Origin: Microthyrium microscopicum
Taxonomy: Eukaryota; Ascomycota; Dothideomycetes; Microthyriales; Microthyriaceae
Reading direction: 5' to 3'
Length of the DNA stretch: 64,000 nucleotides
Assembly (NCBI GenBank): GCA_010405405.1
Contig: MU004240.1
Span: 698,217-762,216 of the forward strand
Below are positions 2,640-21,691 of this stretch, piece after piece (within the stretch, counting starts at the first letter, position 1; each line of letters starts with the position of its first letter). Below the pieces are notes generated by a model. The model saw only the letters and a list, made by a program, of their open reading frames with translations. It had not been told where the DNA came from and searched no databases. Position numbers and translations under genes: made by a program.

Positions 2640-4460
2640 ATGGAGACCTTAAATTTCAACAACGCCACCGCTACCATGGCACCATCACCGTTGATGACCA
2701 TGCTAGAGGTGTCGATTCCAGGATTTTCTCTCATTCAGCGATTCCTGTCAGATTATTTCAATATCGACCTGTCTCAGTATCTTGGAGCTCTTCTTCTTGT
2801 AGCCGGTTTCATCACAGCTTCCAACTATTGCTGGGAGCGATTTCGAGGTTCACTCAATCAATATTTCACATGCAGCGCAGAAGTCCGTTACAACGATGAA
2901 ATTTACAACTATCTCATGTACTGGATCAGCAAAGAGGGACTCTCGAAAACGTCATCGCACTTCGTGGCTGGAACACAAACCAAAAGCTCCGCTGTCTATG
3001 GGGGGGATGAGACTGAGGACGAGGACTACCCCGATGTTGAGGACAGCGAAATGACCGAGGAACTCGCTCTGAGTCTGAAAAATTGGGACCGCATGAAGAA
3101 AATCAAGTTTACACCATCAACCGGAACACACAACTTCAGATACAAGGGCCACTGGCTTACCTTCACTCGCTCTCAAGAAAAGGATCAAGGCTTCTACGGC
3201 TCAACCAAGACTGACGAAATTTCCATTTCTTGCTATGGCAGAAATCCTCAAATTCTCAAAGATCTGCTCCAAGAAGCCCAGGTTGCTTACCTGGAGCGCG
3301 ACGGTAACAAGACTATCATCTATCGTGGAGGTCGCGGGTATGGCGGTTCTATGGACGACCTGGAATGGATTCGATGCATGTCTCGCCCACCTCGTAACAT
3401 GGATACGGTGGTTCTTGATGAAGGTCAGAAGGCTCTTGTTCTCAACGATATGAAGGAATACCTCCGCCCAAGAACGAAGAAATGGTACTCCAACCGTGGT
3501 ATTCCATATCGTCGCGGATATTTGCTTCATGGCCCACCTGGTACTGGCAAGACATCTCTCTGCTTTGCTCTGGCTGGTCTCCTCCATCTCCCAATCTATG
3601 TCGCAGGTCTCAACTCTGGAAAAGTCAGCGAAGAGGGTCTCGCTAGTCTATTCCGTGATCTTCCAGAGCGCTGCATTGTACTTCTTGAGGATATCGACTC
3701 TGCTGGTCTGACGATGAAGCGCAAGGATGACGAGACACCTGCTGTGGAGGAAGACAAGACTGACGACAACAAAGACTCGAATAAGGCTGCCGTTCCATCC
3801 GGCCAACAAGGTCCAGCTCCTGCAGCTGATTCCAACAGCAAGGGTGTTAGTCTTTCTGGTTTCCTCAACATCATTGATGGTGTAGCTTCTAGCGAAGGTC
3901 GCATTTTGGTCATGACTACCAACCACCCAGACAAACTCGATGCTGCCTTGCTTCGGCCAGGCCGCGTTGATCTTTCCATTCAATTCGGTTATGCTAGCTA
4001 CGATGTGCTCAAGGGTCTTTTCATGGCTATCTATTCCACTCGTGGTCCAGAGGTCGCCAAGATGAAGGCGAGCAAGAAGAGCGAGCCAGAGATGAACGGA
4101 AACGCCAACGGAAACGCCAACGGAAACGCCAATGGAAACGCCAATGGACTCGCCAACGGAACTGTCAACGAGAGCAATGGAGTCTTGACCAATGGTATCA
4201 CCGAGAAGACCCCAAAGCACCTTCTCGGTCGTCCTATCAATACCTCATTTTTGGCTCATGGCAAATCGGAAGAGCAAGTTGTTGCTTGGGCGACTAAGTT
4301 TGCTGAGCTGGTTCCTGCTGATGTTTACACTCCAGCGGAAATCCAAGGTTATCTTTTGCAGCATAAGACAGCACCAGAAAATGCCATTGATGAGATTGGC
4401 ATGTGGATGGACACGATGAAGAAGAAGAAGGCTACTACAGCGGCATTGGCATCAACATAA
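2640..4460 (+). CDS. BCS1-like AAA ATPase
   Basis: A single-exon, 606-residue protein. Bcs1 is a mitochondrial inner-membrane AAA protein that translocates the folded Rieske Fe-S protein during complex III assembly; filamentous fungi carry many paralogs of less certain role. Visible features are a hydrophobic segment at about residues 49-65, the BCS1 N-terminal region (about 70-255), Walker A GPPGTGKTS near 297, Walker B CIVLLEDID near 345, and the sensor/arginine region LLRPGRVDLS near 435. An acidic, low-complexity insert of about 45 residues follows Walker B. A run of five Asn-Ala-Asn-Gly repeats (12-bp units, 4096-4150) lies before the C-terminal alpha region. Both inserts are typical of paralogs rather than canonical Bcs1. 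I chose the ATG at 2640 because the frame upstream has no ATG. Membrane AAA identity is firm; the substrate is unknown. Confidence 0.9.
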   Translation: METLNFNNATATMAPSPLMTMLEVSIPGFSLIQRFLSDYFNIDLSQYLGALLLVAGFITASNYCWERFRGSLNQYFTCSAEVRYNDEIYNYLMYWISKEGLSKTSSHFVAGTQTKSSAVYGGDETEDEDYPDVEDSEMTEELALSLKNWDRMKKIKFTPSTGTHNFRYKGHWLTFTRSQEKDQGFYGSTKTDEISISCYGRNPQILKDLLQEAQVAYLERDGNKTIIYRGGRGYGGSMDDLEWIRCMSRPPRNMDTVVLDEGQKALVLNDMKEYLRPRTKKWYSNRGIPYRRGYLLHGPPGTGKTSLCFALAGLLHLPIYVAGLNSGKVSEEGLASLFRDLPERCIVLLEDIDSAGLTMKRKDDETPAVEEDKTDDNKDSNKAAVPSGQQGPAPAADSNSKGVSLSGFLNIIDGVASSEGRILVMTTNHPDKLDAALLRPGRVDLSIQFGYASYDVLKGLFMAIYSTRGPEVAKMKASKKSEPEMNGNANGNANGNANGNANGLANGTVNESNGVLTNGITEKTPKHLLGRPINTSFLAHGKSEEQVVAWATKFAELVPADVYTPAEIQGYLLQHKTAPENAIDEIGMWMDTMKKKKATTAALAST

Positions 4461-20173: not shown

Positions 20174-21691
20174 TTACTTGAACACTTTACCATCGGCATG
20201 AGGATACTCCTTACCCTTGACAACAATGGGCTTCTCCCAGGTCCATTGGGAGTTGACGAACTCCTTGTCTTCGGCCTTGGTGTGGTCGAGCTTTGTGAAC
20301 TCGTAGCTTTCCCAATCTGGAGCAACATCGAATGCATGGGTAGCATTGTCGCCACGGATGAGGAATGCACCTTGAATAACAGAGTCGTTGTTGGTGCCGT
20401 ATACACTGGCGCATCCGAAGATGAATTTGCGGCTGCCCTCCAGACGTGCGAAGAAACCACCTATAGCTCATTAGAAAGCTGTTGGACACCAAGTCATAGA
20501 ATAAACTCACCGATGAGGTTGGAGGACATGAAGACCTGAGTTAGCTCCTCGTTGTACTTGTAGTCAATCTTCCACAATGTGTACTCGTCAAAGTTGACTT
20601 CCTTCCAGAACCACTCCAGAGCCTCGGGCGTCTCGGCATTAGAATACTTGCGCTTCCAGTCATCGAGAACGAACGTTGAACGTGGCAACAAATCTAATGG
20701 ATGCTTTGGCTTTGGTGCTGGCTTGTCTTCCTCCTCTTCTTCTTCAGCAGCGGCAACTGCCTTCTTTGGGGCCTCCTTCTTGGCCTCCTTCTTAGGTGCT
20801 GCCTCCTTCTTTGGTGGTGTGTACTTGATGGCTTCGTCGATGAAGGTGGCAGATGGTTGAGTGTAGATTGGTTGCTTGGTTACTGTTTCGTACCACCGGG
20901 TGAAGCTGACATGCTCTTCACGAAATTTCTTGTCAAAGACATTTTGGAATCCACGGAGCATGAGAGTAGCAACGAAGATATCGGCTAGGGTAAGACGCTC
21001 GCCAACAAGGTATGTGTTGACTAGAAGATAGTCTTCGAGAACCTTGATACGGGCTAGAGTAGCCTTTTGAGCATCATCGACCTGCTTCTTGTTGTAGAAA
21101 GCCTTTCCAGCGAGAGGTGCGAACCATTGAGCGAGGTTTCCAAGAATCTCAGAGTTGGCGAAGGACATCCATTTCAGAATAGACGCATAATCTTGCTTGG
21201 TCTTACCAAGAAGTGTGGTCTTTTCGTTCTGGGAGGTGACTATTTTGATAAAGCTGTTAGCATATGATGGAAACAGCTAAAATAAAATTTGTGATGGAGA
21301 TGTTCGGATCAGAGTGTGAATAAAAGTCAACAGATGTATGTTCAGACAGGGATAACTGTGGTTAAAACCTCATCATTGAAAAAGGTAAGGAGGAAATATG
21401 ACTCGATGACTGGACGTACTGTAGATTGCAATGGCGATGCACTCGCTTAAAACATAGCCATCAGCACCAACGAATGTTGGGATTTTGCCTAGCTTGTTGT
21501 ACAACAAGTAGTCTGCTGGGGCACTGGCACCAGTCTCGGTCTGGACAATCTCGAGGTCGATGTCGTTGGCTTTGGCGACAATCTGAATCGCAGTGGTGCG
21601 AGTGTTGTCCTATAACTTTGTGAGTCTAAGGCAAAGAGGGGTGTTCGAGAGGACCACTTACGTCCTTGGTGTAGAGTTTTCCAAAAGACAT
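20174..21691 (-). CDS. Translation elongation factor eEF1B gamma subunit
   Basis: Four exons (21691-21662, 21609-21420, 21239-20511, 20460-20174); 411 residues, the normal family length. eEF1B-gamma scaffolds the complex that recharges eEF1A with GTP. Residues 1 to about 80 are a GST N-terminal domain (ECIAIAIY near its end). Residues 90-215 are a GST C-terminal domain (LVGERLTLADIFVATL). A Lys/Ala/Glu-rich linker comes next, then the conserved EF1G domain, from KPKHPLDLLPRSTFVLDDWK to the C-terminal YPHADGKVFK. The second intron is 180 nt, against about 50 nt for its neighbours, and carries a snoRNA on the same strand (separate entry). Yeast homologs are Tef4 and Cam1. Confidence 0.96.
21304..21382 (-). 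ncRNA. snR38: Box C/D snoRNA, snR38-like, inside eEF1B-gamma intron
   Basis: On the gene's strand the intron contains box C ATGATGA (21376-21370), box D' CTGA (21345-21342), a plausible C' TGTTGAC, and box D CTGA (21312-21309). The spacing of about 68 nt from C to D suits a C/D snoRNA. The 13 nt directly before D' are CAGTTATCCCTGT, the exact complement of the universally conserved large-subunit rRNA stretch ACAGGGATAACTG near the peptidyl-transferase centre. By the D'+5 rule the methylated base is the second G of the GGG, which corresponds to yeast 25S Gm2815, the snR38 target. Yeast SNR38 is encoded in the intron of TEF4, the same host gene. The terminal stem is weak (TTC/GAA only), so the exact ends are approximate. 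Confidence 0.88.

Follow-up and report, generated by a model that had tools for sequence, protein, structure and literature searches.

What fills the unusually long second intron of the eEF1Bγ gene of Microthyrium microscopicum, and does that intron stand where budding yeast has an intron with the same cargo? In yeast, the intron of TEF4, which encodes eEF1Bγ, carries snR38, and the first-pass annotation of the window (the whole 64,000-nt stretch of DNA analysed here) had proposed an snR38-like RNA for this locus, naming the yeast gene and protein as published papers do.

The eEF1Bγ gene and its introns

The host gene lies on the minus strand and is interrupted by three introns:

20174-21691, minus strand: eEF1Bγ gene with three introns, from the start codon (21691) to the stop codon (ending at 20174)
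21610-21661, minus strand: intron 1, 52 nt, phase 0, GT..AG
21240-21419, minus strand: intron 2, 180 nt, phase 1, in codon 74 (ECIAIAIY^ITSQN), GT..AG, the putative snoRNA host
20461-20510, minus strand: intron 3, 50 nt, phase 1, GT..AG

As had been claimed, intron 2 with its 180 nt is more than three times as long as its neighbours. The spliced frame comprises 411 codons, and Pfam recognizes GST_N, GST_C and EF1G domains in the 411-aa product. When compared with known structures at E<=1e-10, the protein (the query being one Glu short) gave five distinct matches, which include Elongation factor 1-gamma, Elongation factor 1-gamma 1 and a putative glutathione S-transferase.

Box C/D elements within intron 2

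By consensus, box C/D snoRNAs have RUGAUGA (box C) towards their 5′ end and CUGA (box D) towards their 3′ end, and their internal D′ and C′ boxes are often degenerate. The guide, at least about 10 nt long, is complementary to rRNA and adjoins D or D′; a terminal stem closing C and D is not found in every such RNA. In intron 2 we found the following:

21309-21376, minus strand: snR38-like box C/D snoRNA (candidate, by boxes, guide and layout), 68 nt from box C to box D
21302-21383, minus strand: span of the Rfam RF00213 match over this element
21370-21376, minus strand: box C, ATGATGA, with 43 nt between it and the 5′ splice site
21346-21358, minus strand: D′ guide CAGTTATCCCTGT, 13 nt, complement of 25S ACAGGGATAACTG (duplex -20.5 kcal/mol)
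21342-21345, minus strand: box D′, CTGA
21326-21332, minus strand: C′-like TGTTGAC
21313-21322, minus strand: TATTCACACT, adjoining box D, a 10-nt complement of 28S AGTGTGAATA (duplex -11.3 kcal/mol)
21309-21312, minus strand: box D, CTGA; 69 nt separate its end from the 3′ splice site, and about 50 nt separate it from the branch-like A
21256-21261, minus strand: branch-like GCTAAC

The four boxes listed in the first-pass annotation (ATGATGA, CTGA as D′, TGTTGAC and CTGA as D) are thus all present on the sense strand of the intron, and the extent it gave, 21304-21382, is correct within a few bases. Boxes C (ATGATGA) and D (CTGA) agree with the consensus, D′ is an exact CTGA, and the C′ core TGTTGA differs from TGATGA by one mismatch. 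The distance of 43 nt between box C and the 5′ splice site is inside the range of 41-60 nt that is given as usual for intronic snoRNAs of Neurospora crassa in the published excerpt. Intron 2 very probably harbours an intronic box C/D snoRNA that is equivalent to snR38.

Folding does not add to this assignment. In the terminal stem of RF00213, three of the seven pairs are non-standard at intron 2, and the minimum-energy fold of the snR38-like stretch is without a closing stem. This stretch folds no better than its shuffles (z +0.59), and the whole intron, with z -0.47 against shuffles, gives no support for a structured RNA.

The predicted rRNA target

The guide is complementary to ACAGGGATAACTG, a stretch of fungal 28S that appears in a published Phialophora 28S primer and in oligonucleotides for yeast rDNA. 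All 13 nt of the guide pair with this stretch, which upholds the exact rRNA complement claimed at first pass, and counting along the pairing puts D′+5 on the second G of GGG, the residue already proposed there as the equivalent of yeast Gm2815. The comparison was made with 28S words of other fungi because the assembly yielded no rDNA. An assembly-wide word search for the organism's own rDNA returned zero matches for ACAGGGATAACTGGCTTGTGG, zero for AGTGTGAATACAAACC and zero for 5.8S; with no 5.8S match and none of the 28S core words, this assembly seems to lack ribosomal DNA.

In the available rows of a modification table, snR38 guides yeast 25S Gm2815, and an excerpted yeast rDNA study gives nucleotide 2815, on the same rRNA stretch, as its target. 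The numbering differs among the yeast papers excerpted (2815, 2812 and 2811), and we take 2812 and 2811 to be older numbering of the same G. The putative D′ guide points to the counterpart of yeast 25S G2815, a position listed within the peptidyl-transferase region and, as Gm, in yeast, human, Arabidopsis and Dictyostelium in the tabulated extracts.

We are highly confident that intron 2 encodes an snR38 equivalent of about 70-80 nt which is spliced out and guides methylation of the G2815 equivalent. Such an RNA would be transcribed together with the eEF1Bγ host mRNA and, by analogy with intronic C/D snoRNAs, would be freed from the spliced intron by lariat debranching and exonuclease trimming. 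Its C/D and C′/D′ motifs would then be bound by the usual C/D snoRNP proteins, the D′ guide would pair with 25S ACAGGGATAACTG, and fibrillarin would methylate the 2′-OH of the G2815 equivalent.

Chance expectation and uniqueness in the genome

If intron 2 were simply long, its boxes and guide could be a chance arrangement, and we therefore weighed how often such an arrangement turns up. The bare 13-mer guide occurs at four places in the genome, which speaks for chance; by eye, none of the other three looks like 28S in the 241 bases viewed of each. A first, loose box pattern was also at chance level, with 372 + 338 places in the genome vs 365 + 308 for the reversed pattern. The complete layout of boxes and guide occurs once in the 36.9-Mb genome. 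Allowing up to three mismatches, the 17-mer made of guide and CTGA is found at two places in the window (one exact, one with three mismatches) vs a mean of 0.11 per shuffle over 100 shuffles. Without the guide, the box layout arose in 14 of 200,000 simulated introns that had the same neighbour frequencies as intron 2, and in 36 when the first base of box C was left free. For guide plus CTGA, the expectation per 180-nt intron of such composition is about 1e-8, falling to about 4e-11 when an upstream TGATGA is included.

A scan of public genome contigs amounting to 257 billion bases gave a single match to the snR38-like motif, on a stretch of Agrobacterium. This motif (L013, a MAG contig, 4389-4431, minus strand) scores 33.6 bits with RF00213 and is taken as a chance, false-positive control. 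In viral contigs the motif had no matches, the 28S word had none, and the protein of eEF1Bγ exon 3 gave 276 pattern matches, of which zero were confirmed. The bacterial case shows that a chance match to the motif exists, but it took 257 billion bases to yield one, and the element studied here sits in the very gene that hosts snR38 in yeast. Together with the expectations above, this makes a chance arrangement extremely improbable.

Comparison with Rfam models

The first-pass annotation had proposed a search with the Rfam snR38 model, and the outcome of this search was divided: intron 2 tops the candidates that were scored, but its 36.5 bits with RF00213 (snoR38) are under the gathering cut-off of 45, so that the element is classed by its boxes, guide and host and not as a threshold RF00213 hit. 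The E-value is 0.00012 for a stretch of 261 bases and 0.004 genome-wide, and of the 15 Rfam matches listed for the intron 2 stretch, RF00213 ranks first. At gathering thresholds, an Rfam scan of the whole window had zero matches. The RF00213 search of the organism's own genome gave no match at E<=0.001 and two at E<=10, with intron 2 first; at E<=10, 9 of the 14 prokaryote control genomes also had a match, none of them above the cut-off. A search of the genome for SNORD24 (RF00069) gave no match, a null that is uninformative because the control genomes were likewise silent.

Since the chance match in Agrobacterium reaches 33.6 bits, the RF00213 score adds little beyond the motif itself, and the bacterial match serves as a warning on sub-threshold Rfam scores in general. 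Our case rests on the rarity of the motif together with its place, not on the RF00213 score. The low score could also mean that intron 2 holds a degenerate, inactive copy of snR38 while a working one lies elsewhere. Against this, boxes C, D′ and D fit the consensus, there is a single mismatch in the C′ core, the guide is paired over its full 13 nt, and when 62 of the 3120 first-look candidates from the genome were scored, intron 2 ranked highest and the next reached 22.0 bits; a degenerate copy is accordingly very improbable. The runner-up itself (L016, genome contig C7:512552-512661, 22.0 bits, E 8.85) is probably a chance match.

Known relatives of snR38

Homologues of snR38 in filamentous fungi are already in print for Neurospora and Fusarium. 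CD23 of N. crassa is likewise an intronic box C/D RNA, of 72 nt, whose D′ guide is directed at 26S Gm2773, and it is given as the snR38 homologue; the published extract lists 11/0 pairing for it, compared with 13/13 here, and one target. SnR38 of Fusarium graminearum, like the intron 2 element, is described in an excerpt as a putative intronic snoRNA, and when the debranching enzyme Dbr1 is lacking in Fusarium its level falls and snoRNA-bearing lariats accumulate. With the model of Aspergillus fumigatus Afu_328 (RF02403), intron 2 aligns in box C, the AGUUAUCCCUG guide core, the CUGUUGA C′ and box D, yet the model has GCAGA at D′ where the window has TCTGA, and the score is 33.6 bits vs a cut-off of 70.

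In Saccharomyces cerevisiae, snR38/TEF4 resembles the present case in host protein family, in intron place within about 1 nt and in its target, 25S G2815, which is a predicted one for the intron 2 element. The C′/D′ motif of yeast snR38 is described in part of one paper as being without one sheared pair, and the 11 bases quoted for yeast snR38 in another excerpt pair to a Cas9 guide and not to rRNA. The main text of a Candida paper (PMC5033589) has zero mentions of snR38 or TEF4. One study treats the snR38 family in its section on the C/D snoRNA set of the last eukaryotic common ancestor.

Position of the intron in comparison with yeast TEF4

Intron 2 is in phase 1 and splits the codon directly downstream of ECIAIAIY between its first and second bases. 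Published primers for removing the TEF4 intron, as extracted, end and begin at ALAIQFY/VANQVA, and setting ECIAIAIY^ITSQN beside ALAIQFY^VANQVA puts the intron after a homologous Tyr codon in both. The predicted intron place is hence common to eEF1Bγ of M. microscopicum and yeast TEF4 within about one nucleotide, which narrows the earlier reservation that the position might differ. The primers are compatible with phase 0 or phase 1 in yeast, as one G fits either side. The yeast protein presumably has Leu after this Tyr, which makes phase 1 the likelier. Peptide strings of TEF4 with Leu or Val after the Tyr had no match in a literature search. In the extracts searched, we found no statement of an eEF1Bγ intron position common to yeast and filamentous fungi.

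It could be argued that snR38 entered the eEF1Bγ introns of yeast and M. microscopicum on separate occasions and was not co-inherited, and snoRNAs can change their place in a genome, as the title of PMC3511168 states. However, the two introns coincide in protein position to within about 1 nt, and a second translation-factor gene, described below, has an intron with a U18-like sequence that fits yeast EFB1 in place and phase. We regard independent placement as improbable, and we infer that the two introns would descend from one ancestral intron.

The eEF1Bα-like gene and a U18-like sequence

In yeast, TEF5 (EFB1) hosts snR18 (U18), as given in the extracts. The EF1_GNE domain has one match in the genome of M. 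microscopicum (L017, on genome contig C8), and we read this gene as eEF1Bα. Its intron is as follows:

L017 2352-2160, genome contig C8, minus strand: eEF1Bα-like intron, 193 nt

This intron interrupts the Gly codon of SYIVG behind its second base, and yeast primers place the EFB1 intron in SYIEG; the predicted intron shares position and phase with that of EFB1. It contains ATGATGC, GGTCCGTGTTT and CTGA. Among the Rfam matches of the locus SNORD18 (RF00093) scores best; at 25.2 bits it is below the cut-off of 41 (E 0.12), and it ends at 2257, short of the putative box D CTGA at 2229-2226. If this CTGA is box D, the U18-like span from C to D would be 87 nt, and U18 homologues of 89 nt are given for N. 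crassa in the published extract. The U18 assignment is clearly weaker than that of snR38 because box C and D′ depart from the consensus and the score could be due to chance.

A possible second guide next to box D

The stretch adjoining box D, TATTCACACT, is an exact 10-nt complement of 28S AGTGTGAATA, which lies in primer Cg28S_F2 of an excerpted lichen paper, and it may be a second or accessory guide. This pairing was looked for because the rRNA stretch was known beforehand. A match of this kind at offset 0 or 1 arises in 162 of 20,000 random sequences of 5.3 kb, so that a second guide is suggestive only. We take D+5 of the candidate guide to be yeast U2731, two bases from Um2729. In yeast, Um2729 is guided by snR51, whose N. 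crassa equivalent is CD6, according to the excerpts, and U2731 was not found among rows 2278 to 2975 of the yeast modification table. The Afu_328 model of A. fumigatus, unlike intron 2, is without the TATTCACACT stretch.

A wider proposal would join these observations: that the TEF4/snR38 and EFB1/U18 guide-intron positions have both been kept since the ancestor that yeasts share with M. microscopicum, and that the box D element of the snR38-like RNA pairs with 28S AGUGUGAAUA. Taken as a whole, we consider this proposal rather unlikely. If true, the AGUGUGAAUA pairing in the lineage of M. microscopicum would serve either to guide a second methylation or as an accessory clamp.

Implications for guide-bearing introns

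Budding yeast lost many introns, according to an extract of PMC4937481, and the excerpted literature has already reported snoRNA-bearing intron positions common across fungi for RPL7 and NOG2 and argued, for these two genes, that introns are retained owing to their snoRNA cargo. What is added here is same-place evidence for both eEF1B genes. As host gene and intron place both match yeast, the putative snoRNA-bearing intron can be traced across Ascomycota, and its shared position suggests how long the guide has stayed in the eEF1Bγ gene. The similar pattern of eEF1Bα and U18 makes the idea that introns are kept because they carry snoRNAs a testable one. If the wider proposal is true, it would mean a long-lived coupling of ribosome-modifying RNAs to the genes of translation factors.
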